Shown here: one piece after another, positions 5,791 to 33,576 of the stretch | How positions within the stretch are numbered: the first letter of the stretch is position 1 | How the letters are laid out: the number at the start of each line of letters is the position of its first letter | Origin: Lachnospiraceae bacterium Zagget2 | GTDB taxonomy: Bacteria > Bacillota > Clostridia > Lachnospirales > Lachnospiraceae | Reading direction: 5' to 3' | Assembly (NCBI GenBank): GCA_001941045.1 | Contig: MSHD01000049.1 | Coordinates: 1 to 37,443 of the forward strand | Length of the DNA stretch: 37,443 nucleotides | Program-made: the position numbers and the translations under genes | Notes under the pieces: model-generated | The model's input: the letters and a program-made list of their open reading frames with translations, nothing else | What the model was told of the DNA's origin: nothing | Database searches by the model: none

Positions 5791-7137
5791 ATGGAAAAGA
5801 CAAATAAGATGGCAACCATGCCGATGGGAAAGCTCGTGCTGAACATGTCGCTGCCGCTGATGTTCTCGCTGCTCGTGCAGTCTCTCTACAACATCGTGGA
5901 CGGCATCTACGTGGCACGAATCAGCGAGAAAGCGCTGACCGCCACCTCGCTCGCCTACCCGATGCAGCTTCTGATGATCGCATTTTCTGTCGGCACCAGC
6001 GTGGGACTGAACGCGCTGCTCTCGCGCAATATCGGCGCCAAAAATTATGAAGAGGCCGGGCAGATCGCCACGACCGGGCTTTGCCTGGCCCTCGCCAGCA
6101 CCGTCGTCTTCATGCTGATCGGCGCGTTTGCCGCCACACCCTTCGCCTCGGCCTTCACTTCGGACGCGGAGACTGCCCTGCTCTGCAGCCAGTACCTCAC
6201 AATCTGCATGCTGTTCTGCGCCGGAATCTTCGTAGAGACGCTCGCGCAGCGCCTGCTGCAGGCCACCGGTAATACAATGCTCAGCATGGTTTCCCTCGTC
6301 GTAGGCGCGGTGACAAACATCATTCTTGACCCGATCCTGATCTTCGGCCTCATTGGCTTTCCGGCGCTCGGCATCCGCGGCGCGGCGATCGCGACCGTCG
6401 TCGGCCAGTGGCTCGGAGCCGCAGTGGCGCTCCTTCTGAACGCGTTCCGGAATCCCGAGGTAAAATTCGTATTTCACGGTTTCCATTTTTCCGGGAAACG
6501 GCTGCTCGCCATCTACCAGGTAGGCCTGCCGACAATTGTGATGCAGGCGATGGGCTCGATCATGATCTCCGCCGTCAACAGCATCCTGATGCCCTTCTCC
6601 GCGACGGCGGTCGCGTTTTTCGGCGTCTACTACAAGCTGCAGAACTTCCTGATCATGCCCCTGCAGGGACTCGGTCAGGCCGCGATTCCCATCGTCGGTT
6701 TCAACTACGGCGCAAAGAATGAGAAGCGGATTCTGGAAATGCTGCGCGTGATGCTGCCCGCAGCCATTGTCGTGATGCTGCTCGGCACCGCCCTCTTCTG
6801 TATTTTCCCGGGGCAGCTTCTGCAGCTCTTCTCCGCCGGGGAGGACATGCTCGCGATCGGCGTCCCCGCGCTGCGGATTATCTCCATTACCTTCGCACTG
6901 ACCGCGGTGACGACCATTCTCGGCTACAGCATGTCCGGTCTCGGCGACGGCGTGATCAACATGCTCGGCACCGCGATCCGCCAGCTCATTCTGCTCGTCC
7001 CGATGCTCTGGCTCTTCTCAAAGCTCTTCGGCATCTCGCACGCGTGGTATGCCTTCTGGATCTCGGAGGGCGTGGCGGCGCTCTATGCGGCGCTGGCCTC
7101 GCGGCGGGGACTTAAGAAAAGAAACATTCTCAAATAG
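5791..7137 (+). CDS. MATE family efflux transporter (MepA-like)
   Basis: This 448-aa inner-membrane protein has about twelve hydrophobic helices and a clear internal two-fold layout typical of MATE transporters: PLMFSLLVQSLYNIVDGIYVA near the N-terminus, RLLQATGNT, DPILIFG and, in the second half, LQGLGQAAIPIVGFNYGAKN. These proteins export cationic compounds in exchange for Na+ or H+. ATG at 5791 follows AAGGAG; an in-frame upstream start at 5707 would begin at or before the predicted transcript start and would translate through the terminator hairpin, so it is rejected. The leader RNA suggests control by guanidine or a similar cation. A short AT-rich gap separates it from the next gene. Confidence 0.92.
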   Translation: MEKTNKMATMPMGKLVLNMSLPLMFSLLVQSLYNIVDGIYVARISEKALTATSLAYPMQLLMIAFSVGTSVGLNALLSRNIGAKNYEEAGQIATTGLCLALASTVVFMLIGAFAATPFASAFTSDAETALLCSQYLTICMLFCAGIFVETLAQRLLQATGNTMLSMVSLVVGAVTNIILDPILIFGLIGFPALGIRGAAIATVVGQWLGAAVALLLNAFRNPEVKFVFHGFHFSGKRLLAIYQVGLPTIVMQAMGSIMISAVNSILMPFSATAVAFFGVYYKLQNFLIMPLQGLGQAAIPIVGFNYGAKNEKRILEMLRVMLPAAIVVMLLGTALFCIFPGQLLQLFSAGEDMLAIGVPALRIISITFALTAVTTILGYSMSGLGDGVINMLGTAIRQLILLVPMLWLFSKLFGISHAWYAFWISEGVAALYAALASRRGLKKRNILK

Positions 7138-7181
7138 TATATTGCTATTCTCGATCATTTCTGTTATGCTTAATTCAGTTG

Positions 7182-7196
7182 AATTTGAATCAAATT
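7182..7196. promoter_or_regulatory. Palindrome upstream of the DUF234 ATPase gene
   Basis: AATTTGA (7182-7188) and TCAAATT (7190-7196) form a 15-bp dyad with a 1-bp centre, followed by a further TTGATTTGAAT half-repeat. It lies about 50 bp upstream of the start codon in an AT-rich 106-bp gap that probably holds the promoter. The identity of a binding protein is unknown. Confidence 0.35.
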
Positions 7197-7243
7197 GATT
7201 TGAATAAAATCGAGCTGAATAAGGATGCTTTTGGGATGCTGAA

Positions 7244-8671
7244 ATGTTTATAGGAAGGGAAAAAGAACTTGCCAGTCTGCAGGAACTGTATGACCACGCC
7301 GGTTTCGGAATGTCTGTAATCTACGGCAGAAGAAGAATTGGCAAATCCACGCTGATAACAGAATTCACCAGGGACAAAAAAACCATCTTTTACACCGCGA
7401 CCAAAGTAGGTGCAGCACGCAATCTGGAACTATTCGCACAGCAGGTTCTGTTCTTTTTTGACCCATCCTTAAGCGACATCTCCTTCCCTTCCCTGGAGTC
7501 TGTCTTCGATTATATGACGGGTAAGCTTGGCTCTGAAAAAGTAATTCTCGTGATTGACGAGCTGCCATATTGGGCCGAGAAAAACGAAGCATTTCTGTCA
7601 ATCCTGCAAAAATATATCGACACAGAATGGCAGGATAAAAATCTGATGATCATTCTCTGCGGCTCTGCGCTCAGCTTTATGGAAAACAAGGTTCTGAGTG
7701 AAAAAAGTCCGCTGTTCGGCAGAAGAAGCTCGCAGATCAGACTGGAAGCCTTTGACTATAAAACCGCCGCGCTTTTTGTCCCCGGCTATTCTTTCGAGGA
7801 CAAGGCCCTCTGCTATGGCGTCACAGGAGGCGTCGCCAAATATCTTGCCCTGATGGATCCGGAAACAGACATTCACGATAATATCAAACGGCTTTTTTTT
7901 CAGAGGGACGGATACCTCTATGACGAAACACGAAATCTTCTGATGCAGGAGTTTTCAGAAGTAGCGCTTGTCAACAATATCCTCGAACAGATTGCTTCCG
8001 GCATCAATACCGTCAACCAGATTGCGCAGAAAACCGGCGAAAATCTTTCTACGATTCTGTATTCGCTTGACAAACTGATCCATATTGGTCTTGTCCTGAA
8101 AAAGAAGTGCATCACGGAGGAAAAAAACAAAAAGAAAACGCGGTATATTCTGAAGGATCATATGTTTCAGTTCTGGTACCGGTTCATTCCAAAAGCGGTC
8201 AGCGTTATTGAAATGGGGCAGGGGGATCGCTATTATGACAAAATCGTTCAGAATCAGCTGCACACCTACATGGGCAACGTTTTCGAGGATATGTGCCGAT
8301 ACTACACATTGGAACAGGGAATCCAGGGAGCATTCGGTAATTTTCTGACAAATGTCGGAACCTGGTGGGGAGTCGAAACCCTCGATTCTGCTTCCGGAAA
8401 ATATCAGCAATCTGCAGATATTGATGTTGTGGGAATCTCAGATATTGATAAGACTGTTGTTTTAGGAGAATGTAAATTTAAAAGGGAAAAAGTTGACAAG
8501 GATGTTTACGATACGCTGATCCGGCGTTCGGCAGTCATTCATGGTAAATACCGAATCATCCGATACCTGTTTTTCTCCCTGAGCGGGTATACGGACTGGT
8601 TTAAAGCCCTTCCGGGTAATGACGTCGTGCTGTTCACTCTGGAGGATCTTTATCGCGAAACGCCGACATAG
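7244..8671 (+). CDS. AAA ATPase with C-terminal DUF234 nuclease-like domain
   Basis: This 475-aa protein is of the archaeal-ATPase/DUF234 type. The N-terminal domain has Walker A GRRRIGKST (28-36), a Walker B-like segment VILVIDELPYW near 106 and a sensor region IILCGSALSFM. A winged-helix segment follows (about 250-290, IAQKTGENLSTILYSLDKL). The C-terminal DUF234 portion contains ADIDVVGI, then VLGECKFK, which matches the D...ExK core of restriction-endonuclease-like folds. These proteins are widespread and scattered in anaerobes and their physiological role is unsettled; a DNA-processing, defence or selfish-element role is inferred. GGGA sits 7 nt before the ATG. It forms a loose pair with lnt downstream (35-bp gap) but the functions look unrelated. 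Confidence 0.85.
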   Translation: MFIGREKELASLQELYDHAGFGMSVIYGRRRIGKSTLITEFTRDKKTIFYTATKVGAARNLELFAQQVLFFFDPSLSDISFPSLESVFDYMTGKLGSEKVILVIDELPYWAEKNEAFLSILQKYIDTEWQDKNLMIILCGSALSFMENKVLSEKSPLFGRRSSQIRLEAFDYKTAALFVPGYSFEDKALCYGVTGGVAKYLALMDPETDIHDNIKRLFFQRDGYLYDETRNLLMQEFSEVALVNNILEQIASGINTVNQIAQKTGENLSTILYSLDKLIHIGLVLKKKCITEEKNKKKTRYILKDHMFQFWYRFIPKAVSVIEMGQGDRYYDKIVQNQLHTYMGNVFEDMCRYYTLEQGIQGAFGNFLTNVGTWWGVETLDSASGKYQQSADIDVVGISDIDKTVVLGECKFKREKVDKDVYDTLIRRSAVIHGKYRIIRYLFFSLSGYTDWFKALPGNDVVLFTLEDLYRETPT

Positions 8672-8706: not shown

Positions 8707-10398
8707 ATGTTTTCAGATCACATTCGCCATTTTCTGGAAAGAATAAAACGGCCCGGCGCTCTCTGGGTCATGGCTTCCGGCGTGCTCACAGCCGCCGCCA
8801 TTATCTATCCCCGCTTTGGTCTGCTCGCCTGGGTATCCCTGATCCCTTATTATCTGACCCTGTATCAGATCAGCAACCCGGAGAGCGGAAAACAGCCTCT
8901 GTTCCGGACAGGCTTTCTGTTTGGCCTGAGCTTCTATCTCCCGCTCTTCACCTTTTTCTGTGCGCTTTATCCTCTGGACTCCGCCGGACTCAGCCCAGTG
9001 GAAGCTTTATCGGTCGTCTTACTTGCCCTCTTCGGATTGTCCGCGTTCTACAGCCAGCCGCACGCGCTTCTGCCCTGCGTCCTGCGGCTGCTGCAAAAGC
9101 GGGGCATCCGCAGGCAGCAGGCGTTTCTTGCCCCATTGGCGATCGCGGCTCTCTGGATCCTTGTCGAATGGGCTGACTCGCAGACCTTCCTTGGCATGCC
9201 CTGGGGGCGACTCGCGGTCTCCCAGTACCGGCTGACGCCGCTGATTCAGAGCGCTTCCCTTTTGGGTTCCTGTTTTGTCAGCTTTCTGATCGCTCTTTGC
9301 AACGCTCTGCTGGCACAGGGGATCCGGCAATCTTTTCTGTCAAATGATACGGTCGCTAAAAACACGATTGTGGAGGAAGAATCTACAGGTAATTCGCCTT
9401 TGAAAAACACAATATCCAACAGGCGAAGCCGCGAAAAACATGGTGGGGTTGTCTGCATCTTGTGTGCCGCTGTGCTTTTTGGGGGAAATTTGTTATATGG
9501 AATCATTTCTCTGAACATAGAACCGACGCCCGCCGAAACCATTTCTGTGGCGATCGTCCAGGGCAATCTGTCCACTTCGGAAAAATGGGGAGACGACGGG
9601 GAACTCCTCTCACTGGAACACTATCTGAACATGACGAAGGAACTGTCCGCGGAAGAAGAAGCAGACCTGATCATCTGGACCGAGAGCTGTATTCCCGTTG
9701 TTCTGAACGGATACCCGGAGATATCGCAGCAGATAGCGGAAACTGCCGTGGACTGCGGCGCGGTCATTCTGGTCGGCGCTTATTATTACGATGGAAGCGA
9801 TCACTACAACGCGGTCTACGCCTTCTATCCGGACGGCACAGTGAGCGATCAGCCCTACTGCAAACGCAAACTGGTGGCCTTCGGCGAATATATGCCTCGC
9901 TCCGCTTTTCTGGAATTTCTGGTTCCCGCGCTGGCGGAGCTCAACCTGATGCAGTCCGCGTTCACACCCGGAACGGACAGCGCTGTCTTTTCTACGGATT
10001 TCGGTTCGATCGGGGGACTCGTCTGCTTTGACGCGGTCTTTGAGGGACCTGCCCTCTCCTCGGTGAGAGACAGAGCGGAGCTTCTGGCGCTGCTGAGCAA
10101 CGATGCCTGGTATGACAGCTCCTATGCGGTCTCCAATCTTCTGGGGCACAGCGTGCTGCGCGCGGTGGAAAACGGCCGCTTTGTCGTGCGCGGCGCGAAT
10201 ACCGGAATATCCGCCATTATCGACGCGAAGGGTCGGATCCAGACAGAATCGAATCTGCGGACCGCGGAAGTGATTCGAGGAGAAGTGTCATTTTACAGCC
10301 ACCGCACCCTTTACTCCTATGTGGGAAATCTTTGGGAGCTGGTCTGTTTTTTATATGTCATTGCGCTTTTAAGTATTTTTTCAAATGCAGCCCGATGA
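8707..10398 (+). CDS. lnt: Apolipoprotein N-acyltransferase
   Basis: This 563-aa membrane protein has an N-terminal bundle of hydrophobic helices (about 18-205 and 248-268) and a nitrilase-like extracytoplasmic domain (about 278-530). The catalytic Glu-Lys-Cys triad aligns as Glu326 (IIWTES), Lys386 (CKRKLVAFGEY) and Cys440 (GLVCFD); the usual CYE after the cysteine is CFD here. The family adds the third acyl chain to the N-terminal Cys of lipoproteins, classically in diderms. A polar insert (about 208-247) separates the last membrane helices and looks lineage-specific. AAGGAC lies upstream of ATG 8707. At least three genes in this window encode predicted lipoproteins that could be substrates, along with an Lgt-like gene at 10796-11581. 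Confidence 0.9.
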   Translation: MFSDHIRHFLERIKRPGALWVMASGVLTAAAIIYPRFGLLAWVSLIPYYLTLYQISNPESGKQPLFRTGFLFGLSFYLPLFTFFCALYPLDSAGLSPVEALSVVLLALFGLSAFYSQPHALLPCVLRLLQKRGIRRQQAFLAPLAIAALWILVEWADSQTFLGMPWGRLAVSQYRLTPLIQSASLLGSCFVSFLIALCNALLAQGIRQSFLSNDTVAKNTIVEEESTGNSPLKNTISNRRSREKHGGVVCILCAAVLFGGNLLYGIISLNIEPTPAETISVAIVQGNLSTSEKWGDDGELLSLEHYLNMTKELSAEEEADLIIWTESCIPVVLNGYPEISQQIAETAVDCGAVILVGAYYYDGSDHYNAVYAFYPDGTVSDQPYCKRKLVAFGEYMPRSAFLEFLVPALAELNLMQSAFTPGTDSAVFSTDFGSIGGLVCFDAVFEGPALSSVRDRAELLALLSNDAWYDSSYAVSNLLGHSVLRAVENGRFVVRGANTGISAIIDAKGRIQTESNLRTAEVIRGEVSFYSHRTLYSYVGNLWELVCFLYVIALLSIFSNAAR

Positions 10399-10455: not shown

Positions 10456-10737
10456 TTATCGTTGTTCATCAATGACCTCCTGAATCGACGCATAACCCTT
10501 CTTTGAAAATAATTCGTCGAAGTCTCCCTCGCACCCTAATGCGAAGGCTATCTTGATGAGTGACGACAGTGAAATCTCTCCGGTTCGCTCAAAGCGTTTC
10601 AGCGTGCCAAGACTTACGTCTGAACGCTCGCTTAGCTGCACCTGTGTTAATTTCTTCTCCTTCCTCCGCTGACGCATTCTCATCACAATTTCTTTATTTA
10701 CATCGCCTGGAGATTTTAATAAATCGAAATTATTCAT
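10456..10737 (-). CDS. XRE/HipB-like helix-turn-helix regulator, orphan
   Basis: This 93-aa protein has an XRE helix-turn-helix at about 24-75 (MRQRRKEKKLTQVQLSERSD, then SLGTLKRFERTGEISLSSL) and a short tail. The tail (CEGDFDELFSKKGYASIQEV) resembles HipB-type antitoxins that precede a HipA-like kinase. No hipA follows: only 57 bp separate its stop from the convergent end of lnt, so it is an orphan or the toxin was lost. ATG at 10737 begins 7 nt after the predicted -10 box and has no Shine-Dalgarno sequence, suggesting leaderless translation. A TTG 36 bp upstream is in frame but lies inside the promoter. Perfect 19-bp inverted arms flank the promoter. Confidence 0.85.
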   Translation of the reverse strand: MNNFDLLKSPGDVNKEIVMRMRQRRKEKKLTQVQLSERSDVSLGTLKRFERTGEISLSSLIKIAFALGCEGDFDELFSKKGYASIQEVIDEQR

Positions 10738-10738
10738 A

Positions 10739-10793
10739 GATAAAATATTAACCCAAAATTGCCGTTTTAACAAGTTTGGGTTAATATTTTATC
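10739..10793. promoter_or_regulatory. XRE promoter with paired 19-bp inverted operator arms
   Basis: GATAAAATATTAACCCAAA (10739-10757) and its exact reverse complement (10775-10793) are 17 bp apart. On the minus strand the -35 TTGTTA is at 10773-10768 and the -10 TAATAT at 10750-10745, 17 bp apart. One arm therefore covers the -10 box and the other lies just upstream of the -35. This is an ideal layout for autorepression by the XRE protein. The same stem sits 3 bp downstream of the Lgt-like stop and might also slow read-through, but no T-tract follows. Confidence 0.7.
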
Positions 10794-10795
10794 CA

Positions 10796-11581
10796 TTATT
10801 TCCGAACCACTGATCTGCTTTTTAGTGCGTGAATCACCACAACCAGCAGAAGTACGAGGCTGATCCACTGGCTGGTCGACAGGCCGAACCAGATGCCGCG
10901 GGCCGCATCCCCGCGGAAAAACTCGAGAACAAAGCGCAGGGCCGCATAAGCGCCCATATAGAGAAACAGTAAATCGGATTTCTTTTTCAGCCTGTCCTTG
11001 ACGGCCAGCAGCAGGAAAAACAGCAGCAGATGCCCGGCGGCTTCCACCAGCTGGCTCGGAAAGAGCGGGACGCCCGCCGGAGCCAGCGAACCTTCCGGGA
11101 ACACGACGCCCCAGGAGACCTCGACGCCGTAACAGCAGCCGCCCAGGAAACAGCCGATGCGCGCAATGGACATGAAGAGCGGCGTTGCCGGAACGAAGAG
11201 TTCAATGACGGTCTGCCCATCCAGCTCATAGTGCCTGGTGTACAGCCACTGCAGGAGAATCAGCATGAGCGCGCCGCCGTAAAACACCAGGCTGGAAAAT
11301 GCCACCTCCAGAATCAGGCCGGGATTTGCGCTGTAATAAGCCCAGTTCTCAATGATTCCAGGAAGATTGACGAGGAACCCCATCAGCGTACCGCCCACAA
11401 GAATGCTGATGATACAGTTGGCAAAAAGGCTGATGATATGATAGAGCGGCAGTCTGCGGTTCTCCTCCAGCTGCGAGTTGGCGACATTCAGGTAGATAAA
11501 GACCGCCAGAAGCCCCAGCACTGTCATGAACCAGTATCCGCTGATCCGCAAGTCACCGTATGAAAAGATAATCGGACACAT
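10796..11581 (-). CDS. Divergent Lgt-like (prolipoprotein diacylglyceryl transferase family) membrane protein
   Basis: This 261-aa polytopic protein has about seven hydrophobic segments and the overall Lgt layout. The signature region reads ARIGCFLGGCCYG (140-152), keeping the conserved Arg141 but with Cys/Gly in place of the GNFxNxExxG pattern. The loop FYGG (100-103) has Tyr where canonical Lgt has the His of FHGG. The later RFVLEFFRGD block with Arg and Glu is kept. True Lgt transfers diacylglycerol from phosphatidylglycerol to the lipobox Cys; whether this paralogue does so, or modifies another thiol-rich protein, is open. It is the last gene of the TetR cluster, 43 bp after the acidic-repeat gene, and so is probably co-expressed with the Cys/His repeat lipoprotein. 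Confidence 0.8.
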   Translation of the reverse strand: MCPIIFSYGDLRISGYWFMTVLGLLAVFIYLNVANSQLEENRRLPLYHIISLFANCIISILVGGTLMGFLVNLPGIIENWAYYSANPGLILEVAFSSLVFYGGALMLILLQWLYTRHYELDGQTVIELFVPATPLFMSIARIGCFLGGCCYGVEVSWGVVFPEGSLAPAGVPLFPSQLVEAAGHLLLFFLLLAVKDRLKKKSDLLFLYMGAYAALRFVLEFFRGDAARGIWFGLSTSQWISLVLLLVVVIHALKSRSVVRK

Positions 11582-11624
11582 CAGCTACCTCCTCGTCCGC
11601 TCCTTTGGCCGGATTTGCAGCCGT

Positions 11625-12137
11625 CTACTCAGCCGGGTCTCCATTCGACTCGCCTGCCGGTTCATCCGCTGAATCCTCAGCCGGGTCTTCTGACGGATCC
11701 TCGTCCGGCTCCCCGAACGGGTCTTTCTCCGGCTCGACGATGGCTTCGACCAATGCGACAGCCTGAGGAGTTTCCTCTTCGGAGGCAGCGGCCACTTTCT
11801 GTTCTTCTACCTCCGGTTCTGCCTGCTCTGTAGGAAGGGTGTACCCCGCTTCCGCAGCAGATGCACTGACCTGTACACTGACTGCAACTTCCACTACCGA
11901 TTGGACAGATGGATCATCTTCTTTTTCGCCCTCAGATTCTGCCTGCTCTACAGAAAGGGTATACCCCGCTTCCGCAGCAGATACGTTGGCCTGTACAACA
12001 ACTGCAGTTCCATCTACCAAATAGTAAGATTGATACATTTCATCGCAGTAACCAATGAATTCTCCATCTACTTCTTCCACTCCATGATATTCATCACAGA
12101 ACCAGCCTCCACACTCACATTTGATATGGATGTTCAC
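11625..12137 (-). CDS. Acidic low-complexity protein with Cys-rich start, in frame with the preceding gene
   Basis: This 170-aa protein is of unknown family. Residues 1-45 carry Cys7, Cys9, Cys14 and Cys31 with CECGGWFC, continuing the Cys-rich character of the upstream protein. Two copies of an AAEAGYTL..EQAE unit follow at 40-residue spacing. The last ~60 residues are mainly Glu, Asp, Pro and Ala, with DP/EP steps like a cell-wall-spanning or disordered tail. It starts at GTG with GGAG 8 nt upstream. It has no signal peptide of its own. It lies in the same frame as the Cys/His repeat gene, separated only by a TAG and six sense codons, so the pair may be one ancestral 600-aa protein. A separate cytoplasmic product is the alternative. 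Confidence 0.6.
   Translation of the reverse strand: MNIHIKCECGGWFCDEYHGVEEVDGEFIGYCDEMYQSYYLVDGTAVVVQANVSAAEAGYTLSVEQAESEGEKEDDPSVQSVVEVAVSVQVSASAAEAGYTLPTEQAEPEVEEQKVAAASEEETPQAVALVEAIVEPEKDPFGEPDEDPSEDPAEDSADEPAGESNGDPAE
11818..12012. repeat. Direct repeat of ~75 bp at 120-bp period inside the acidic-protein gene
   Basis: The segment beginning at 11818 (TCTGCCTGCTCT...) recurs at 11938, each copy being similar for about 75 bp including CCCCGCTTCCGCAGCAGAT. The spacing is 120 bp, exactly 40 codons, so it is a coding duplication that keeps frame. Confidence 0.75.
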
Positions 12138-12155
12138 ATACGAAACTCCATACTC

Positions 12156-13424
12156 CTATCCAACCTTCTCATACCATTCTTTAATTTCCTGTTCACACTT
12201 CTCACAACACCCGCAGTCCATTGCATAGCAGGCATAGTGCTCACCCTCACACCCCAACAGGGTACTGTGAATTTCCTCTTCCAGTTCTTCTGCACTCACC
12301 TGACACGCATAATGATCTCCGCAGGCCAACAGACTATGATCCCCCGCCGTGTCTGAGAGATGCCCGCAGGCCATGAGACTGTTGCTCGTTTTGCTTTGAC
12401 CGCAACTGCAGTTTTCGCAGGCATAATGTCCGCAGCCAAGCTGGCTGTGATCGTCTTCGTCCGTACAGGCGAAGTGTCCGCAGGCGAACAGGCTGTGATC
12501 GCCGCTCGAGCACTCATAGTGGCCGCAGGCCAGATTCCCGTGATCGCCGCCCTTGCACGAATAGTGGCCGCAGGAGAGTGTATCGTGATCGCCGCCTGCG
12601 CAGGCGTAATGCCCACACTCGAGCAGGCTGTGATCACCGCCATTGCACACATAATGTCCACAGGCCAGCTGGCTGTAATCGATGCCATCTGAAGTGCATA
12701 CATAATGTCCGCAATCCAGCAGACTGTGATCCCCGTCTACGCACGCATAATGTCCGCAGGCCAGCAACGTATGATCGCCGTCCGCGCAGGAGTAATGTCC
12801 ACAGGCCAGCCTTTTCAGATGAGTCCCTTCCTCACACCCATAATGCCCGCATTTCAGCTTCACATGCAGTCCTGACTCACACGCATAGTGCCCGCAGCCC
12901 ATCTTCGTATGTGATCCTGACTCGCAGGCATAGTGTCCGCAGGCGAGCTGGCTGTGATTTCCCGTAGCCGTGCATGCGTAGTGGCCACAGGCAAGCTGCT
13001 CATCATGATCTCCCTCCTCGCACGCGTAATGTCCGCAGTCGAGCTGACTGTGATCTCCCGAAGCCGTGCACTCGTAATGGCCGCAGGGAAGCTGGGCGGT
13101 ATGATCGATAAAATACCCTATTTCGCACCCATAGTGGCCGCAGGCCATTTTTGAGTGATCGCCCGTACAGATACAATGCTCTCCGCAGGCGCCAAGGCCG
13201 TGTCCGGCATGACACGCATAATTCCCGCAGTTCAGCATTTCATGATCATCCGAATTGGCCGAGTCGCCGGGATCCTCCGAGCTGTGTACTCCACAGGCAA
13301 AATACGTCACGCTGCTATACGTGCACCCCTGAAGCGGCGTCGTAACAGTCAGGCACAAAAACGCCATGATCGAAAGTATGATCGCGCTGCGGCGGGGGTT
13401 CCTCTGTTTCTCTTTCTTTCTCAT
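12156..13424 (-). CDS. Secreted Cys/His-rich tandem-repeat lipoprotein (CGHYxC repeats)
   Basis: This 422-aa protein belongs to no family I can name. The N-terminus is an export signal: basic KKEKQRNPRR, a hydrophobic stretch and LQGC, a plausible though atypical lipobox (Cys34). From residue 64 to about 400 it is made of about 21 units of 15-16 residues with the core [x]-C-G-H-Y-x-C-x-x-G-D-H-S-x-L. Fifteen units have exact CGHYxC, one CGHFAC, one CGHL, and four are degenerate. It contains about 50 cysteines (12 percent). Each unit offers two Cys and two His, so metal or heme-type cofactor binding, or a disulphide-rich rod, is plausible (inference). The C-terminal tail has CGCCEKC. It sits 30 bp after tetR and 18 bp before the acidic gene, so it is the core gene of this operon. 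Confidence 0.85.
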   Translation of the reverse strand: MRKKEKQRNPRRSAIILSIMAFLCLTVTTPLQGCTYSSVTYFACGVHSSEDPGDSANSDDHEMLNCGNYACHAGHGLGACGEHCICTGDHSKMACGHYGCEIGYFIDHTAQLPCGHYECTASGDHSQLDCGHYACEEGDHDEQLACGHYACTATGNHSQLACGHYACESGSHTKMGCGHYACESGLHVKLKCGHYGCEEGTHLKRLACGHYSCADGDHTLLACGHYACVDGDHSLLDCGHYVCTSDGIDYSQLACGHYVCNGGDHSLLECGHYACAGGDHDTLSCGHYSCKGGDHGNLACGHYECSSGDHSLFACGHFACTDEDDHSQLGCGHYACENCSCGQSKTSNSLMACGHLSDTAGDHSLLACGDHYACQVSAEELEEEIHSTLLGCEGEHYACYAMDCGCCEKCEQEIKEWYEKVG

Positions 13425-13454
13425 CCTTCTCCTCCTGCAAAAGCTGTGTGAATC

Positions 13455-14144
13455 CTATCCCTGCTGTTTCGAGCTTTCCTCCAGATAACGAAAGATTCCG
13501 GAAATGGTCTCCTTCGCGACTGCCTGAAAATCAAACTGCTTTACAAAATCGACGGCCTCCTGTATCTTCTCCGGCGGGATATCATACAGGCGAAAGGCAT
13601 TTTTCAGGAAGGCCTCGACCTTCTGATCCATCGTGAACCACATATTGCAGGGCACGGTCATAAAGCCCCGCATGATGCCGCCCGTCGCAATTTCCAGAAT
13701 ATAAAAATCCTTCGTCTGAAGCTCCGGCAGATATTCTTTAAAAATATATTCCATCTTGCCTGTCACCCTCTGCTGGATCAGTGCGGAGGTCTTTGGCAGG
13801 GAGTAGGCGGAGCTGTATACGTCCCGCAGGTTCTCATTCAGCTCCACGATATGCAGCTGCAGCGCCGTCTCCGCCGCGTACAGAAGGAGCTTATCCTCCG
13901 TCTTCCCCGCAAGCAGCTTCTCGGAAGTCGAAAACTGGCTCTCCAGGACAAACACGATCAGCTCGCAGAGCACGTCCTCCTTGGTGCGAAAGTGGCTGTT
14001 GAACGCGCCTATGCTGATTCCAAGCTTCGTCGTGATGCTCCGAACCGTGGTATCGGTAAAACCATTTTCCAGAAAACTCTCTGCCGCGGCGTTCAGAATC
14101 CTGCGCCTCATCGCGTCGCTCTGCTCTTTTGAAGTCTTCGCCAT
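13455..14144 (-). CDS. TetR/AcrR family transcriptional regulator
   Basis: This 229-aa protein has the TetR DNA-binding domain at about 7-58 (RRRILNAAAESFLENGF, DTTVRSITTKLGIS, FNSHFRTKEDVL) and an alpha-helical ligand and dimerisation domain. GGAGAG lies 9 nt before the ATG. It is the first gene of a tight minus-strand cluster with the Cys/His repeat lipoprotein, the acidic protein and the Lgt-like protein, which suggests that it controls them. The ligand is unknown. It has its own promoter with TTGACA and a direct repeat in the early transcribed region. Confidence 0.9.
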   Translation of the reverse strand: MAKTSKEQSDAMRRRILNAAAESFLENGFTDTTVRSITTKLGISIGAFNSHFRTKEDVLCELIVFVLESQFSTSEKLLAGKTEDKLLLYAAETALQLHIVELNENLRDVYSSAYSLPKTSALIQQRVTGKMEYIFKEYLPELQTKDFYILEIATGGIMRGFMTVPCNMWFTMDQKVEAFLKNAFRLYDIPPEKIQEAVDFVKQFDFQAVAKETISGIFRYLEESSKQQG

Positions 14145-14165: not shown

Positions 14166-14198
14166 GACGTGTCTTCTTGTTTAATAAGGACGTGTCTT
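14166..14198. promoter_or_regulatory. Direct repeat GACGTGTCTT, candidate TetR site
   Basis: GACGTGTCTT occurs at 14166-14175 and 14189-14198. The copies are 23 bp apart, about two helical turns, just downstream of the -10 box of the tetR promoter. The position fits a roadblock operator. TetR proteins usually bind palindromes, so the assignment is tentative. Confidence 0.4.
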
Positions 14199-14207
14199 TA
14201 TACGCAT

Positions 14208-14236
14208 ACTCTATCATGTTTCGATCGTGATGTCAA
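14208..14236 (-). promoter_or_regulatory. Promoter of the tetR-Cys/His repeat operon
   Basis: Minus strand: TTGACA (14236-14231), 17-bp spacer, TAGAGT (14213-14208). It lies in the 98-bp gap between the GH3 gene and tetR, so the four-gene cluster has its own promoter. Confidence 0.6.
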
Positions 14237-26670: not shown

Positions 26671-27321
26671 TTAACCTATAAAGCCCCTTACAAATTTCTG
26701 CTCTAATTCAACCTCTGTGTAAACATAGGCATCCAGAAACAGATAATCCTTCAGGCGCTGCATAAACCCTGGAACATATCTTTCCCCTGCCAATCGGCAG
26801 TCCTTATTTTTTCCATACAGGCGTGGATTTTTTTCAGAACTGCACACTAAAATAAATGTAATATGCTGCTGTGCGAATTCCATCGGCTGATCATATGTAA
26901 ATCCCGGATAGACATGCCCCTTTTGCTTCATGTCATATAAAATATCTAAAAGCATGTACCAGTTTGCATATGCCTTTTTCAGAATGCTATTCTTCAGTCC
27001 ATCCTTTTTGGCCTTGATCTCCGAGTTTTTAAATTCTACAAATGTCCAATTGTCATCCTGATCTACCAGAAAACCATCTGCGGTATTTACTATATTGTTT
27101 TCCCCAGCTTCATCCCTGGCATTTTTTGCTTTTTTATAACCACCTTGAGCAATCGAATCCATATCTATAACAGGCAAATCCCTCTGACCATTGTAAACAT
27201 ATTTAGAGTCCTGTTTATCCAAAGACACAGCATGTAAATTTGACGTCAACACCTCCGTTTCCACTCCATGGTCGGCAAGGTATTCCTTTATAATGCTTTG
27301 TATTTGATCAAAATTATTCAT
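26671..27321 (-). CDS. PD-(D/E)XK-like small protein, partner of the adjacent ATPase
   Basis: This 216-aa protein is of a family I cannot name. The segment TADGFLVDQDDNWTFVEFKNSEIK places Asp82 and Glu96-x-Lys98 in the order seen in PD-(D/E)XK nuclease folds (D, beta strand, ExK). Helices follow, then the strand FAQQHITFILVCSS. No membrane segment or signal is present. The ATG overlaps the last 8 bp of the AAA ATPase gene, so the two proteins are made together, in the style of ATPase-effector pairs. Nuclease activity is inference. It is the last gene of the four-gene AT-rich operon. Confidence 0.65.
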   Translation of the reverse strand: MNNFDQIQSIIKEYLADHGVETEVLTSNLHAVSLDKQDSKYVYNGQRDLPVIDMDSIAQGGYKKAKNARDEAGENNIVNTADGFLVDQDDNWTFVEFKNSEIKAKKDGLKNSILKKAYANWYMLLDILYDMKQKGHVYPGFTYDQPMEFAQQHITFILVCSSEKNPRLYGKNKDCRLAGERYVPGFMQRLKDYLFLDAYVYTEVELEQKFVRGFIG

Positions 27322-28627
27322 CTTCCTCTTCCATCCCGTACCTTAAACGATCCAACAGCATACTTGCCGTTACCATCTGTGCATAAATCTTTTCAAGGTT
27401 ACCTGTTACATTTTCGAAGCTCACCGCGCCATTTTTTTCACTCGAACGATAATAATTGCATTTTTCTTCAATCTTATATTTTCGAGAATACAGCTCTATC
27501 GCCTCCAGAAAATCTCTGCTATGCGTTGTAACCACAATACTCAGATCAAACTGCTTCTGAAGCAGTACAATAATCTCAGCGTATTTTAATTGCCAGTCCG
27601 GATGCAGGTGAATCTCGGGCTCATCCAGAATCAGGACATCCTTCTCTCTCAGGTTCCCGCTCTCCAGCAACATCCTGACTATAAGAAAAGATTTCACTCC
27701 TGCCGAGAGGTTATCCAATAACAAAGAATCTGTCAGTTTTTCCGACCGCAATCGCCAGTCCCCATTCTTCGTGATAATATCACCCCCAGCTACCTCGTTT
27801 AAAATTGCAAATATTTCCCTTAGTCCTTCTTTTGCAACTACCGCATCAAAAATCCCCTCTGTCAAAGTATTCCCCGGCCTCTGCAGACGCTCCTTTAACC
27901 GATCTCGGATTTTCTCTTCTGACATTATACCCGGAAAATAAGCATGCGACGCATCATCCACAATAAAAGGATCATCTATAAAAAACGCCTCGTGTAAAAT
28001 ATTGAACTCCGACTCCAGCGCTACACACTCATTATTTTCAAAACGCAAAACAAGATCCTGATCTTTGATTCGAAGCCTGACCTTTGGGTTTTCATCTACA
28101 TTATTGAGGCTTGCTATTTGCGAGGCAAATACCGACCGAAAGAATCGGGAAATCAATTCCAGTGAAGCTTTATGATCGTCTCCCCTTTGCCTTTCCATAA
28201 TCTTTGAAAACGTCTCTGAAAAATCCTCTCTCTGCAAGGATTCGTAAAGTTCTATTCCATATTGATTAAACTCATCGCAGAATATTTCCCCGAGCAAATC
28301 GTAAGTCAGTTCATTTGCCTCGTAAGATGATAAATGCTCATAAATAGCGACACCAAGCTTTCTGGAAATGGACACTACTGCCTGAGAACCCGGCAATTTC
28401 CCCTGTATCCGAAGTGTTCGCAAAATATTTCTGCACGCTCTTTCGATTTCCTCCCTCTTTTCTGTCTCTATTTTCTCATCCATATTGTACATAGAATTAA
28501 ACACAGAATAAAGAACTTTTCCTACTGTACTTTTCCCTGTATTGTTCTCACCGGCAATGACAGTGAGCCCATCTATTAATATGTCTGCATGTCCAATTTT
28601 AGCAAGATTGTCGATTATCAATCTCAT
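27314..28627 (-). CDS. ABC/OLD-type AAA ATPase (AAA_15/AAA_21-like)
   Basis: This 437-aa soluble ATPase has Walker A GENNTGKST (26-34), an ABC signature-like LSAGVKS (307-313), Walker B VLILDEPEIHLHP (Asp335, Glu336) and an H-loop TTHS (His369). The helical insert between A and signature is long. It resembles ATPases of OLD, Septu PtuA and similar defence complexes, which dimerise on ATP and drive a nuclease partner. The downstream gene overlaps and encodes a nuclease-like protein, in keeping with this. A TOPRIM domain is not present, unlike Gabija GajA or OLD. It starts 72 bp after the coiled-coil gene. Confidence 0.85.
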   Translation of the reverse strand: MRLIIDNLAKIGHADILIDGLTVIAGENNTGKSTVGKVLYSVFNSMYNMDEKIETEKREEIERACRNILRTLRIQGKLPGSQAVVSISRKLGVAIYEHLSSYEANELTYDLLGEIFCDEFNQYGIELYESLQREDFSETFSKIMERQRGDDHKASLELISRFFRSVFASQIASLNNVDENPKVRLRIKDQDLVLRFENNECVALESEFNILHEAFFIDDPFIVDDASHAYFPGIMSEEKIRDRLKERLQRPGNTLTEGIFDAVVAKEGLREIFAILNEVAGGDIITKNGDWRLRSEKLTDSLLLDNLSAGVKSFLIVRMLLESGNLREKDVLILDEPEIHLHPDWQLKYAEIIVLLQKQFDLSIVVTTHSRDFLEAIELYSRKYKIEEKCNYYRSSEKNGAVSFENVTGNLEKIYAQMVTASMLLDRLRYGMEEEDE

Positions 28628-28699: not shown

Positions 28700-29770
28700 C
28701 TAAAAATCCTTCTCCGGTGATGGAACCCCTCTAAATACACGCTCAATATCTTCCTGTAGCAAATCCTGTGGCAAATACGTATAATTTACATGTTTCTCAT
28801 CCAGTTTTTTCACAGTATCCTGAAGCTGATCCTCCAGAATACTAAAAAAATACTGTCGAGGATTCTGATCAATCCTCCTTTCCAGTTCTTCCCGCTCTCG
28901 CTCTGCCTGGATTCTTTTATTCTCCAGGGCCTTGACCTGCTCTTGAAGATCTGATTTCAAAATGTCAAATTTCTCTTTTCCCAACTGTCTTAGCAATACA
29001 TCAAGTTTCCCATCGCTCCCATTCAAAAACGCCTCAATTTCCTTCATCTCCTGCTGAATTTGCTCCAGTTTCTGATCAATCGGGTAGCACAGCGCTGCCT
29101 CCATCCATTTCTCTACTTTTATGGATAAACTTCTCTGACTGAGGACATTGTAAAATCCTCCCCTATGGCACTCTGCACTATATCGGTCCTTCAGCTGACT
29201 CATGTAGTAATCGGTCGATGTGTTACGACAGTACCATTTTATAGTGTCCGATTTCCATTGTTCTATAAAATTGTCCCGGTTTGAACAATTTCCGACAAAC
29301 CGGATATATTGGCTTAAAGTCTTTCTCAAATCCGCTGAAATCTGAGTCAGTCTTTGATTCAATTTCTCATAATCAGCATCCGTTTCCGGTTTTTCTTTTT
29401 GAATCTGCCTGTTCACCCACTCCCTGAAATTTTGCATCTGAAGTCGATCCTGAAAGCCATTGGCCTCACTTTGGTTGTGGTCAAAAATTGCCCGCAGCAT
29501 CTTGATTTCCTCCAAACGCCACCCCAGAGAACGAAACTGGTACTTATCTTCTTTTTGCAGATACCGCCAATAATGACTGATCACATAGCTTGTATCTACA
29601 GCAAATTTATATAAGTCCTGTATAGCCGTCATAAACTTTGCATCTTCATGTTCTCCATGAAAAAGTGTTGGCTCATAATTACAGCACAAAAAGAGCTGCG
29701 GTGAAATAAATTTCTGAACTTCCCTATTTAGCAGCTGTGCATCGGCGGCAGAAATGACAGGTTTGTTCAT
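28700..29770 (-). CDS. Hypothetical coiled-coil protein of the defence-like operon
   Basis: This 356-aa protein is unrecognised. The first ~220 residues are helical and rich in aromatic residues (CCNYEPTLF, SHYWRYLQKEDKYQF, GWRLEEIKMLRAIF, IKWYCRNTSTDYYM). Residues about 230-310 are a charged coiled coil (KLEQIQQEMKEIEAF, then KRIQAEREREELERRID). The tail is hydrophilic. No catalytic motif stands out. Its ATG overlaps the stop of the 1269-aa protein as ATGA, which indicates obligate co-translation, so it is probably a structural or effector partner of that protein. Confidence 0.6.
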   Translation of the reverse strand: MNKPVISAADAQLLNREVQKFISPQLFLCCNYEPTLFHGEHEDAKFMTAIQDLYKFAVDTSYVISHYWRYLQKEDKYQFRSLGWRLEEIKMLRAIFDHNQSEANGFQDRLQMQNFREWVNRQIQKEKPETDADYEKLNQRLTQISADLRKTLSQYIRFVGNCSNRDNFIEQWKSDTIKWYCRNTSTDYYMSQLKDRYSAECHRGGFYNVLSQRSLSIKVEKWMEAALCYPIDQKLEQIQQEMKEIEAFLNGSDGKLDVLLRQLGKEKFDILKSDLQEQVKALENKRIQAEREREELERRIDQNPRQYFFSILEDQLQDTVKKLDEKHVNYTYLPQDLLQEDIERVFRGVPSPEKDF

Positions 29771-32700
29771 TCTCCCACCTCCCGCTCTCTGCGTCCCGCG
29801 GCAGTGTATACCGAAAATCCTGTGTAGCCAATACCCAGCTCCAAATCCTTCAATACCTGACTTTCATCCGGCATTCCCTTTTTCCATCCCAGATTACGTA
29901 AGTGAAACCGGATCCCCCCGTTCTTATCCTGAATAAATGAAGGGACTTCATTTATGTGAATAAAACCATTCATCTTATTTCGAGTATGCACCCCACGCCC
30001 CGTATACGCATACGGAGTCCCTGTTTCGTCACACAGCATAAAAGGAGTCCTCATCCGCCCATTTGTAAAAGACATTTCGTTAATTGAACGCAAGATGTTC
30101 ATGGTTTCCTCATATCCATTTTTTGAACGATGACTAATCTGGAGCGTTGACAATGCATAAACCAACATAAGCAGTGGCTGCCTGTCATCTCCGGCAACAG
30201 CACTGTAGGATCTGCACAACTGATTTATCTCTGCCCATGCAGTTTCGTCCATCCTTGTTATCTGGCATTCCGGAGTACTTGTCAAAGTCGTTCGATTATA
30301 ACACATCCAACAGACGCGAATCATCATCGCAAGCGAGTATTTACTGGAGCAAATGCATGCGAAATGCTCCTCCTCCTTCATAAATTTATATACTCGTTCG
30401 CAGCTGGAAAACTCGTCCTCGTTCAACTCCCTTCTTCCGCCGGAAGGAATTTTCAACTCTTTCTGACACACAAATGCAATTGCTGCAGGATTATTCGCCT
30501 CCAGCATTTCATCAAAGAGCACCAGAAAGGCCTGTTTTTTCTTATCCTTATTCGAATGGTCGGAACTCTCGCGATACTCCCTGATTGATTCTAATGTAAT
30601 CGGTACCTTTTCGCTAATACTTGTTATTTTGGCCAGATGTACAGAAAGCTCGTCTCGGTTTCCACGGCTCGTGATCTCACTATCCATGGTACGGCAGCTT
30701 TCTACGACCTGCATAATCTCACTCAGGTATTGCAGCCGCAGCGCTTCGGACAGATTCTCTTTTTCATACGTTCGCTCAAATGCCTTGAACAGCGTATTAT
30801 ATGCATATCCATTCAACGGGTCGCTGGCAATAATCTTTTGTAGCTTTTGGTACAGAACACAATAGCTTAACTTTCGTTTACCCAGCTCGAGATCCTCCGC
30901 CATGTGGTTTGCGAGACAGAATCTTTTATACTCATCCATCAGTTCCTCAAGCCGTAGATTACACTGCGCAGCCTCCACTATCAATGAATAGTTTTGATTA
31001 TATAAGTGCTGTCTTTCCCTGTATTCCATATTCAAACGGATCTGGATCCTTTCCGCGCTGCTTTCCGCAAGCGTAATAGCGGAAATCAGTTTTTTTATCC
31101 TGCGCTCATAACTTTCCTTTGAAAAATGCTCCGGGTCATCTATCCATGGTTCGAGATCTTTACCAGAGGTTCCATACCATTTCGACCACAGCCCGCCATA
31201 ATATTCACGCGTAAAAGCTACAATGATAACCGCAAATCCGGCGTCCTCATCAGGTACACCATATACATTCTGCAGAGCTTCAAGCTTCTCTATCACTCTG
31301 TCCAATCTCTTTTCAATCTGTTGATACTCCGGCTTTCTTTCTTCGCGGAAAGGCACGTAAGTCGAGTTTGGCCCCATAAAGCGCAGCAACGACTGCAAAT
31401 ACTTCGTGAACGAAGGATCCTTACATCTGTTTCTCTGATAATCCTCTCCGTAAATATCTATAATTTCACAGAGGAGATCGACCTGTTGATTCCCTGTGAT
31501 GTCATGATTTTCCAGATAAATATCCGCCTCAAGAGAATTGCGAAAACGAAATGTAAACTCTCCCTCTGCATCTACACCATAATGTATCCACGGCAATGAT
31601 GTCGTCACTATATTGTAAAGTTTCTGTCCATTTTCACTGTATGGAAGTACCGTTTCACTATCTGTCAAAAACGTATATGCGAGGCTGTAAGGAATACGGA
31701 GTTTAAAACGGCTGAACATTGCCACACAGGTATTAAATCTGTCAAGTTTTTCCTCAATTGTCCTGTCGGATTCGGACAACATGCCTTCCTTCTCAGCATC
31801 GACAGAAATCCCCCGGGGGTCAACACCCACCCGAAGAAGAGCTTGGTAGATGGCTCCAGATCGCTTATCGGATTGCTCTTCATTATATATCTGCCCAAAC
31901 ATTCTGCTCAGTTCTCTCTTCACATAGGGAGTAATAATTCTTTGTTCCGTACGCAGTTTCTCCTCAAGATTTTCCCGCAGCACAGCGAGCAGATAGTAAT
32001 AATAATTAAAAATCTCATTTTCATTCTTATATTTCTCTTTAAATCGTTCTATTTCGTCTTCATGGATTCCAGAATATTCGCTCACCTTCTCCCAAAACTC
32101 GTCTTTCTCACCGTCACTCATCTCTCTGACTGCCCTGACAATGTAACAGCCATATTCATCCAGAATCTGCGCGACCCTCGAATCACATTTTTCAAACCTT
32201 TCGGAGTTTTCCGTAAACTGATATGCATTTCTGACCGCCTTGTCGTCCGCCTCATACATCGCATAACTGCTGCAAACCATCACAAAGCGACGGCCTCTGT
32301 TCTCCAGCCTCTCCAGTATCCTTCGGATGCGCCCTACATCCATCTTATAGGAAGAACTGTCCCACACAACCAAGATGCGCGTATCAACATTCCCCACTGC
32401 TTTTTGTTCCAACAGCTGCATGGCCTCATCCAGTTCTTCGACTCCGGAACCCATATTGGTGCTTAAATAAGAATCCGCAGAAATGTAGATCACAGGATTG
32501 TTTTTTTCCTGATATATCCTGTATGCCAGCGCTCCCAATGTGATGCTCTTGCTGCTTCCCGGATCACCGCTGAGGATGATCGGGCGATTGGGAACCGGTC
32601 TTCCCTCCACTCCCTTTCCTTCCAGCATTTTCCGCACAAGCCGAACAAGAACCTCCTCGTAGCTTCGTCTGACATAGAAGGTGGATTGCGGCAGGTATCC

Positions 32701-33576
32701 ATACCACTGCGGCCCGTCAGTTGCGCTGAAGTCCAGAAAGTTCGCAAACCAGCGCCTTGACATCGACTTTCCTAAAGGGCGAATCCGGTTCACGGTATGA
32801 TCCGTCAGTAAACTTCCCACATTTTTAAAGACGAGCAGATCATTGAGGGAAATGCTGACCGGCACTTGACCCTGATAATAAATGTCTGTCTCCGGCTCAA
32901 GCTCTTCTCCATAGCCCTCCGCATATGCATCGTTCTCTTCATTGTGAACTTTGATTATTTCCGCAAGGGAGATCTGATAAAATCCAAACTTTTTCCTTGA
33001 GGCAACCTGCTTCAGCGCATCATATTGACGAACATATTGCTGTGGACAGTTTTCCGGCATATCCCAGATCGTCACCAACCCGTCTGTCGTCTTTTCAAAA
33101 AGAAGACGAGTAAGCCCTCCATCGCTGAAAACCTTCCAGTCAAACTCCGAATTTGCGCCTATCACAACCAGCGGGTTGATATAATCAATCATTCCAGGCA
33201 AAAGACTAAGTATGTCACGCGCGGCATGGATATCATAATCAGCACTTCCTACAACCGTAGCTCCCGCGTCCAGCCACGACAGGTCTTCTTTTTCCTCTCC
33301 CTGAATTCCAAACAGACGAATAATCGGCAGTCTGATCCTGCTGAGCGGCTTGGCGGGTATTTTCTCCCGGGAAGTCAACTCGTAAACGCTACGCTTATCG
33401 TCCATAAACATTGTAGCCAACTCGGGATCCTTCCTGCTTGTAATAACGGCGCTCCACGGGCATTGCGAAATCAATTCCCTGATATCATCATCACAGGCAT
33501 TTTGCCCAATATACAAAATCACATGGTTTGAATAAAATCGGTTGTAAAATTCGTCCGCAAGTTTTTTTACATTCAT
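29767..33576 (-). CDS. Large P-loop protein with degenerate SIR2-like N-terminus (STAND-like)
   Basis: This 1269-aa protein has an N-terminal ~250 residues that follow the SIR2-like pattern (VILYIGQNA at 19-27, W41-SAVITSRKD, LPIIRLFG at 83-90, then VVIGANSEFDW). The GAGxS, TTNxD and LHG elements are all altered, so NAD hydrolysis is doubtful. A P-loop NTPase follows with Walker A GDPGSSKS (337-344, Ser in place of the usual Gly) and Walker B-like RILVVWDSS (Asp406). The remaining ~800 residues are helical and presumably sensor or scaffold, as in STAND proteins. Composition is AT-rich. It starts a four-gene operon; ATG 33576 has a strong GGAGGAG only 31 nt upstream, across a hairpin. A defence sensor role is inference. 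Confidence 0.7.
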   Translation of the reverse strand: MNVKKLADEFYNRFYSNHVILYIGQNACDDDIRELISQCPWSAVITSRKDPELATMFMDDKRSVYELTSREKIPAKPLSRIRLPIIRLFGIQGEEKEDLSWLDAGATVVGSADYDIHAARDILSLLPGMIDYINPLVVIGANSEFDWKVFSDGGLTRLLFEKTTDGLVTIWDMPENCPQQYVRQYDALKQVASRKKFGFYQISLAEIIKVHNEENDAYAEGYGEELEPETDIYYQGQVPVSISLNDLLVFKNVGSLLTDHTVNRIRPLGKSMSRRWFANFLDFSATDGPQWYGYLPQSTFYVRRSYEEVLVRLVRKMLEGKGVEGRPVPNRPIILSGDPGSSKSITLGALAYRIYQEKNNPVIYISADSYLSTNMGSGVEELDEAMQLLEQKAVGNVDTRILVVWDSSSYKMDVGRIRRILERLENRGRRFVMVCSSYAMYEADDKAVRNAYQFTENSERFEKCDSRVAQILDEYGCYIVRAVREMSDGEKDEFWEKVSEYSGIHEDEIERFKEKYKNENEIFNYYYYLLAVLRENLEEKLRTEQRIITPYVKRELSRMFGQIYNEEQSDKRSGAIYQALLRVGVDPRGISVDAEKEGMLSESDRTIEEKLDRFNTCVAMFSRFKLRIPYSLAYTFLTDSETVLPYSENGQKLYNIVTTSLPWIHYGVDAEGEFTFRFRNSLEADIYLENHDITGNQQVDLLCEIIDIYGEDYQRNRCKDPSFTKYLQSLLRFMGPNSTYVPFREERKPEYQQIEKRLDRVIEKLEALQNVYGVPDEDAGFAVIIVAFTREYYGGLWSKWYGTSGKDLEPWIDDPEHFSKESYERRIKKLISAITLAESSAERIQIRLNMEYRERQHLYNQNYSLIVEAAQCNLRLEELMDEYKRFCLANHMAEDLELGKRKLSYCVLYQKLQKIIASDPLNGYAYNTLFKAFERTYEKENLSEALRLQYLSEIMQVVESCRTMDSEITSRGNRDELSVHLAKITSISEKVPITLESIREYRESSDHSNKDKKKQAFLVLFDEMLEANNPAAIAFVCQKELKIPSGGRRELNEDEFSSCERVYKFMKEEEHFACICSSKYSLAMMIRVCWMCYNRTTLTSTPECQITRMDETAWAEINQLCRSYSAVAGDDRQPLLMLVYALSTLQISHRSKNGYEETMNILRSINEMSFTNGRMRTPFMLCDETGTPYAYTGRGVHTRNKMNGFIHINEVPSFIQDKNGGIRFHLRNLGWKKGMPDESQVLKDLELGIGYTGFSVYTAAGRREREVGE

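Follow-up and report, generated by a model that had tools for sequence, protein, structure and literature searches.

The 37,443-nt contig MSHD01000049.1 of Lachnospiraceae bacterium Zagget2 (the window in what follows) was chosen for its repeat, a tandem array of CGHYxC units in a cysteine- and histidine-rich protein. The repeat gene belongs to a set of three minus-strand genes, encoding a TetR-family regulator, the putative repeat lipoprotein and an Lgt-like protein, together with a convergent gene for an apolipoprotein N-acyltransferase of the Lnt family (Table 1). An initial annotation had described four minus-strand genes here. Its open reading frames (ORFs), their strand and the gaps of 30, 18 and 43 bp between the TetR gene, the repeat ORF, an acidic ORF with a GTG start and the Lgt-family ORF are all confirmed, but the acidic ORF does not stand as a gene. 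The set consists of three genes plus lnt because this ORF forms the C-terminal end of the repeat protein. The convergent lnt gene had been overlooked, and the cluster as first drawn was incomplete.

The repeat ORF contains 21 repeat anchors, 15 of which are strict CGHYxC motifs, along with 51 cysteines and 41 histidines, in good agreement with the roughly 21 units and 50 cysteines first reported. When the mature sequence was shuffled 10,000 times, at most two strict motifs arose, compared to the 15 present, and the repeat is thus real and far beyond chance. The common unit reads C-G-H-Y-x-C-x-x-G-D-H-x-x-L-x and spans 15 residues, often 16. Seven copies of the gene were seen, six of them in full, while the copy on contig G006:C86 is cut by the contig start (by length and sequence, loci L009, L010 and L012 are identical to contigs G007:C122, G006:C163 and G005:C126, respectively, and were counted once). 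In the five loci with a readable start, inspection shows a basic start, a hydrophobic stretch and a lipobox-like end, which reads LQGC in the window, LLGC in L009, L011 and L012, and LTGC in G214. A glutamine or leucine at position −2 of the lipobox is less usual relative to the consensus. The protein thus has both elements of a lipoprotein processed by Sec and signal peptidase II, an N-terminal signal and a lipobox ending in cysteine, and, as the initial annotation had supposed, it is probably exported and lipid-anchored.

No match to the window protein was detected in Pfam or NCBIfam at E≤1 or among PDB sequences at E≤10, and the best Pfam E-value for three of its relatives was only 0.36. 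Within these three resources the repeat is an unnamed family, as had been suspected. The open-licence literature yielded nothing on CGHY as a repeat in a cysteine-rich protein, and none of the papers listed there for zinc-binding, cysteine-rich repeat lipoproteins of Lachnospiraceae looked related.

The acidic ORF is the C-terminal tail of the repeat lipoprotein, cut off in the window by a TAG codon (12156–12158, minus strand). Repeat and acidic ORFs share one frame with this single TAG between them, the stops falling at frame residues 423 and 600. Repeats and tail form one open frame of 651 residues in L009, 683 in L011 and 644 in G214, and the frame of L010 is open from a point just past the lipobox, corresponding to window residue 39, to the tail. 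A separate acidic-protein gene, as first annotated, is therefore rejected. The TetR gene also ends in TAG, which fits the use of this codon as a stop in this genome. The last 120 residues of the intact proteins are strongly acidic, with D/E to K/R counts of 50/2 in G214, 36/3 in L009 and 49/17 in L011.

Table 1. Genes and candidate regulatory sites at the repeat locus, in window coordinates.
Feature	Position	Strand	Domain match or motif
TetR-family regulator, first gene of the unit, 229 aa	13455..14144	-	Pfam TetR_N, 6e-11
CGHYxC-repeat putative lipoprotein, main part up to the in-frame TAG, 422 aa	12156..13424	-	lipobox-like LQGC
Acidic C-terminal tail of the repeat protein, 170-codon GTG ORF beyond the TAG	11625..12137	-	
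Lgt-family paralogue, 261 aa	10796..11581	-	PF01790, 4e-37; signature RIGCFLGGCCYG
Lnt-family apolipoprotein N-acyltransferase, 563 aa, convergent with the Lgt-like gene	8707..10398	+	LNT_N, 1.1e-23; CN_hydrolase, 7.5e-25
Candidate TetR operator, just downstream of the -10 hexamer	14186..14199	-	AAAGACACGTCCTT
Promoter-like site of the unit	14208..14236	-	TTGACA-17-TAGAGT
HipB-like helix-turn-helix ORF between the Lgt-like and lnt genes	10456..10773	-	HTH_3, 3.6e-9

The arrangement of potential ligands was examined in 115 units taken from the seven copies (nine complete or partial sequences), in which the two cysteines per unit are given by the construction of the search. Four residues separate the two cysteines in 103 units, and a histidine lies between them in 98. 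A histidine is found somewhere before the next unit in 113 units, although some of these stretches are long; the first one is located 4–7 residues after the second cysteine in 88 units, and at five residues in 69. The order C, H, C, H in most units supports the metal-type repeat proposed initially. Where the first histidine is missing, an extra cysteine at position −3 is present in 7 of 17 units, compared to none of the 98 units that have it (Fisher's exact test, 4.4e-7). The seven units, all C-terminal and of the CxxCxxWxC type, share some homology among themselves, so this value overstates their independence. Such a replacement favors a metal site, probably for zinc, and the simplest reading of the pattern is that each unit likely provides four ligands (C2H2 or C3H) to a zinc-type site. 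The cysteines might instead form disulfides, with a small cross-linked loop in each unit and a protease-resistant surface rod free of metal. An exported protein with two steadily spaced cysteines per unit is what this alternative would predict. However, it accounts neither for the histidine between the cysteines and the one soon after in most units, nor for the extra cysteine where a histidine is lost, and we regard it as unlikely, even though it is the strongest of the rival explanations considered here.

The repeat family is narrow as far as the samples go. A pattern was scanned against one genome per species for 84,980 species, a search that missed G214 and is thus not exhaustive; four of its nine matches are relatives, all from metagenome-assembled genomes, three of them named Lachnospiraceae and one Clostridiales. 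A DNA-pattern match on contig C41 of the window's own genome lies antisense in an ORF read as an aminotransferase and was discarded. The repeat profile (E≤0.001) matched 3 of 397 genomes of the family, 3 of 391 of the class and 2 of 348 of the phylum, in samples that partly overlap and each include the window's genome. Only the window's own genome (G000) and G214 are true matches among these. The weak matches in G026 (E = 2.5e-4), G539 (8.5e-4) and G974 (8.9e-4) have no CGHY units and were treated as noise. Further true repeat genomes are G005, G006 and G007, from the genus, and L011, from the species scan. Three plasmid matches by tblastn (26–36% identity) were attributed to composition; one of them (H1) is antisense to an annotated repetitive gene, and another (H2) has no annotated gene beneath it. 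No match was found in 50,697 phage records, and the viral contigs contained one pattern stretch and no relative.

The genes of the set are inherited together. Within the genus, the repeat and the Lgt-like orthologue occur in the same 4 of 17 genomes, and TetR orthologues (96–97% identity) occur in 3 of the 16 others, exactly those with the repeat, the remaining genomes giving only weak matches to other TetR proteins. This is the joint occurrence of repeat, TetR and Lgt-like genes that the initial annotation had proposed as a check. Lnt is found in 5 of the 17 genomes, namely these four and G009. The set recurs in G214, which belongs to another genus, among other neighbors. On the TetR side, a GH3 gene is adjacent in the window (by Pfam) and in L010 and L012 (by reading of the ORFs), while the neighbors were read as phosphotransferase system-like in L009, as peptidase-like in L011 and, beyond one ORF, as serS- and parB-like in G214. 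On the Lnt side, an ATPase gene is common to the window (by Pfam), L009, L010 and G005. A second, G214-like copy of repeat and lnt is present at L069 (1–2706, contig G006:C86), in a genome that also holds a copy of the first kind.

All four genes are under purifying selection, with ratios of nonsynonymous to synonymous substitution rates (dN/dS) of 0.04–0.31 relative to the window copies. The ratios are 0.04–0.10 for TetR, 0.08–0.26 for the N-terminal repeats (four loci, G214 excluded), 0.12–0.22 for the Lgt-like gene (that of L011 compared only up to its frame break) and 0.17–0.31 for lnt; dS exceeds 1 in the comparisons with G214.

Lnt enzymes have a catalytic Glu-Lys-Cys triad. The Lnt of the window combines LNT_N and nitrilase domains and matches the PDB structure of Lnt (5n6m, E = 3.1e-27) with the catalytic glutamate, lysine and cysteine aligned, the identity of these residues being taken in part from PMC8689077. 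The same source holds that low-GC Gram-positive bacteria lack Lnt and that Firmicutes N-acylate their lipoproteins with other enzymes. In the family sample, LNT_N was detected in 9 of 397 genomes, 8 of them above the cut-off. Both of the true-repeat genomes of this sample, G000 and G214, are among the nine. Since the window was chosen for its repeat, its genome was left out of the odds: Lnt is then present in the one remaining true-repeat genome and in 8 of 396 genomes in all, with a probability by chance of about 0.02. Lnt follows all six repeat copies that have their 3′ side on the contig (the window, L009, L010, L011, G214 and G006:C86). Lnt is thus rare in the family, not absent, and is the rarer and steadier of the two enzymes of the set.

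The Lgt-like protein aligns with E. coli Lgt (5azb, E = 1.2e-6) and scores below the NCBIfam equivalog cut-offs for lgt, with 67 bits against 118.9 for TIGR00544 and 156.4 against 334 for NF000778. By these scores, it is classed as a PF01790 paralogue and not as an lgt equivalog. As read from the alignment, it keeps R143, G154, R239 and E243 of the E. coli enzyme (residue names after PMC4728403), and has cysteines in the places of both N146 and E151, where the canonical Lgt of the same genome keeps GRWGNFFNRE. In E. coli, the variants E151A/Q and H103A/N/Q/R/Y are inactive (PMC4728403). The tyrosine in the place of H103 was rejected as a sign of a dead enzyme; the same residue is found in the canonical Lgt of this genome, so only N146 and E151 set the paralogue apart.

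The cysteine-rich signature is not a local specialty, since RxGC...GCC is present in 26 of 28 Lgt-like loci inspected in other genomes, a chosen sample from among the best matches to the Lgt-like protein of the window (the other two were unreadable by script). With this protein as query, 218 of the 397 family genomes gave matches at E≤0.001; apart from the gene itself and that of G214, the matches listed share 30–45% identity, and the weaker of them could represent ordinary Lgt. The genome of the window has three PF01790 genes, the canonical one on C8 (229.6 bits), the Lgt-like gene and one on C50 with 32% identity to it. The C50 gene (L028, 4027–6679) stands behind a pseudopilin-like ORF (N_methyl, 9e-9) and a 202-aa ORF with no Pfam match. 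At least 6 of the 28 loci (L092, L100, L101, L107, L111 and L115) have a small ORF of membrane type, with an ALVLGIVGIV-like sequence, beside the Lgt paralogue, in a survey of neighbors in which only cysteine-rich or lipobox-bearing ones were shown.

Within the set, the Lgt-like gene is the loosest member. Its reading frame is unbroken in the window and at L009, L010 and L012 but broken in L011 and G214, and the second copy in G006 has no such gene separating the repeat gene from lnt. The Lgt-like enzyme, initially proposed as a partner of the repeat protein, is thus not supported as an obligate one. The initial annotation had also named repeats without an Lgt-like neighbor as evidence that would count against it, and the second G006 copy is in part such a case, its contig being cut on the 5′ side.

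It is conceivable that both acyltransferase homologues are bystanders on a mobile island with unrelated cargo, and that the housekeeping Lgt acts on the lipoprotein instead. The canonical lgt gene on C8 and the wide occurrence of Lgt-like relatives in the family agree with this idea. However, an enzyme as rare as Lnt nevertheless follows every repeat copy in which its position can be seen, and does so in two genera; we consider the bystander explanation improbable.

The regulator carries the TetR_N DNA-binding domain, as expected for a TetR protein. A promoter-like TTGACA-17-TAGAGT, which scores 10 of 12, precedes its gene, in line with the promoter first assigned to the unit. However, three promoter-like sites were found in the region compared to 3.2 expected, and the weight therefore rests on conservation: TTGACA is found in five of six aligned loci, the alignment of the sixth (G214) falling short of it. 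The core GAC-NN-GTC of the candidate operator is likewise kept in five of the six loci, with L012 departing from it. The operator is a near palindrome in the window (AAAGACACGTCCTT) and a perfect one in G214 (AAAGACATGTCTTT). Because a genome-wide search returned the degenerate pattern twice, a number judged to be about the chance level, conservation and not rarity is again the evidence for it.

These observations are best explained by a transferable, TetR-controlled module in which a lipid-anchored repeat lipoprotein with metal sites travels with homologues of acylation enzymes, an explanation to which we assign a probability of about 0.5. One exported protein would be anchored by its N-terminal lipidated cysteine. 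It would consist of about 11–21 tandem units, mostly of 15–16 residues, in each of which C1, H3, C6 and H11 would bind one metal ion, most likely zinc, and would end in a flexible acidic tail. The Lgt-family paralogue would travel with the module and often be lost, and the Lnt of the module would N-acylate the repeat protein. The outcome may be a rod braced by metal that stands on the membrane's outer face and could serve as a surface coat or a local metal store.

Several observations weigh against this explanation. AlphaFold models of the full-length window protein and of an 82-residue repeat segment (27 rows) have low mean confidence, with predicted local distance difference test (pLDDT) values of 40.2 and 38.7, respectively. 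Ten of the 17 units that lack the first histidine have no cysteine at −3 (five CGNYAC, two CGYYAC, two CGDYAC and the CGGWFC of the window, which has a cysteine at −2). No candidate operator was found near lnt, the only other match in the window (at most one mismatch) being far from it at 30068, so lnt may be regulated apart. At the seven further Lnt loci in the family sample, the neighbors were read as unrelated, and in G009 lnt lies on a 4.1-kb contig beside a HipBA-like pair, with no repeat, TetR or Lgt-like match in that genome. The Lgt-like gene is broken or absent in three of the seven copies. Lastly, the repeat frame is interrupted in three of the six copies seen in full: by the TAG in the window, at the lipobox in L010 (a run of four versus five G) and within the repeats in L012. 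The repeat protein may thus be dispensable or in the course of being lost. The contigs of L010 and L012 have only about 6–7x coverage, and assembly errors are possible there, such that loss is indistinguishable from error at these two loci. It seems that either loss of the repeat gene is frequent or these assemblies err in the repeats.

The interrupted frames, together with repeat blocks that are gained and lost between copies, would also suit selection for switching a surface protein on and off, as in an antigen or a phage receptor. In that case the breaks and the changes in repeat number themselves would matter, and the chemistry would come second. The low dN/dS in the N-terminal repeats and in the partner genes (at most 0.31) does not fit this idea, nor do the breaks, which differ from copy to copy. 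In the alignments, beyond which no search for switchable tracts was made, one run of four G against five was seen, in L010. Such switching appears to be an improbable explanation. The heme-loaded rod suggested initially is rejected in its c-type form, including a multiheme c-type cytochrome, as the motif CxxCH does not occur in any of eight repeat sequences or parts; non-covalently bound heme is compatible with the data.

A rare Lnt linked to one lipoprotein would allow a test of whether an acylation enzyme can be reserved for a single substrate in a single-membrane cell. The repeat, with no named family in the libraries searched, offers a scaffold of regular build, in which the predicted metal sites recur at intervals of about 15 residues. 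A wider and more tentative view is that of a mobile cassette in a monoderm, which would combine a metal-array surface rod with its own N-acyltransferase and, in some copies, its own Lgt paralogue, and thereby offer dedicated acylation of one substrate and a new repeat fold with one metal site per 15 residues.

A few further genes lie outside the set. The HipB-like ORF resembles an insertion remnant and is placed outside the set; it is absent in L009, where the Lgt-like and lnt genes are 13 bp apart. A HipA-like ORF, assigned by reading of ORFs, accompanies the HipB-like one in L012 (7751–9104) and L062 (2710–4099), and L010 has a shortened remnant (7034–7547) and a further antitoxin-like ORF (6554–6829). 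These ORFs lie either between the Lgt-like gene and lnt or beside lnt, and the gap resembles a site of insertion. Farther away in the window, an AAA ATPase (27314–28627, minus strand) resembles AriA over nearly the full length (2.9e-19) and other defense ATPases in part. A nearby ORF of 1269 aa (29767–33576) has no PADLOC hit. These two are possible defense genes.

Parts of the module resemble known systems to different degrees. A likeness to the CHY zinc finger of Pirh2 (PMC10148881) served as a lead only, and the repeat protein has no Pfam match. The sole PDB match to the repeat profile is a β-carbonic anhydrase (1ddz), at a chance-level E-value of 0.073. HxxC is a metal-binding motif in these enzymes, where the histidine and the second cysteine of a CGHYxC-like stretch bind the metal (PMC6690855). 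What is shared is taken to be a short motif only, and neither similarity of fold nor homology is claimed. The Lgt-like protein resembles Lgt in its PF01790 domain and kept residues, and differs from it by the cysteines at N146 and E151, the latter being a position at which substitution inactivates the E. coli enzyme (PMC4728403). The Lnt is typical in its two domains and its aligned catalytic residues, and unusual in that it is found in Lachnospiraceae, traveling with one lipoprotein. In the Aat system of enterobacteria, AatD is an Lnt homologue that acylates CexE, a particular exported protein of its own system (PMC7943197, PMC8689077). The residue acylated by AatD is an N-terminal glycine, and the enzyme operates alongside an export system that spans two membranes, while the repeat protein has a lipobox cysteine instead of a mature N-terminal glycine, and a reading of the neighborhood ORF lists showed no Aat-type export genes. 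The module described here would thus be comparable to AatD and CexE in pairing an Lnt homologue with an exported protein of its own, with a lipobox cysteine in the substrate and a host among the Lachnospiraceae.

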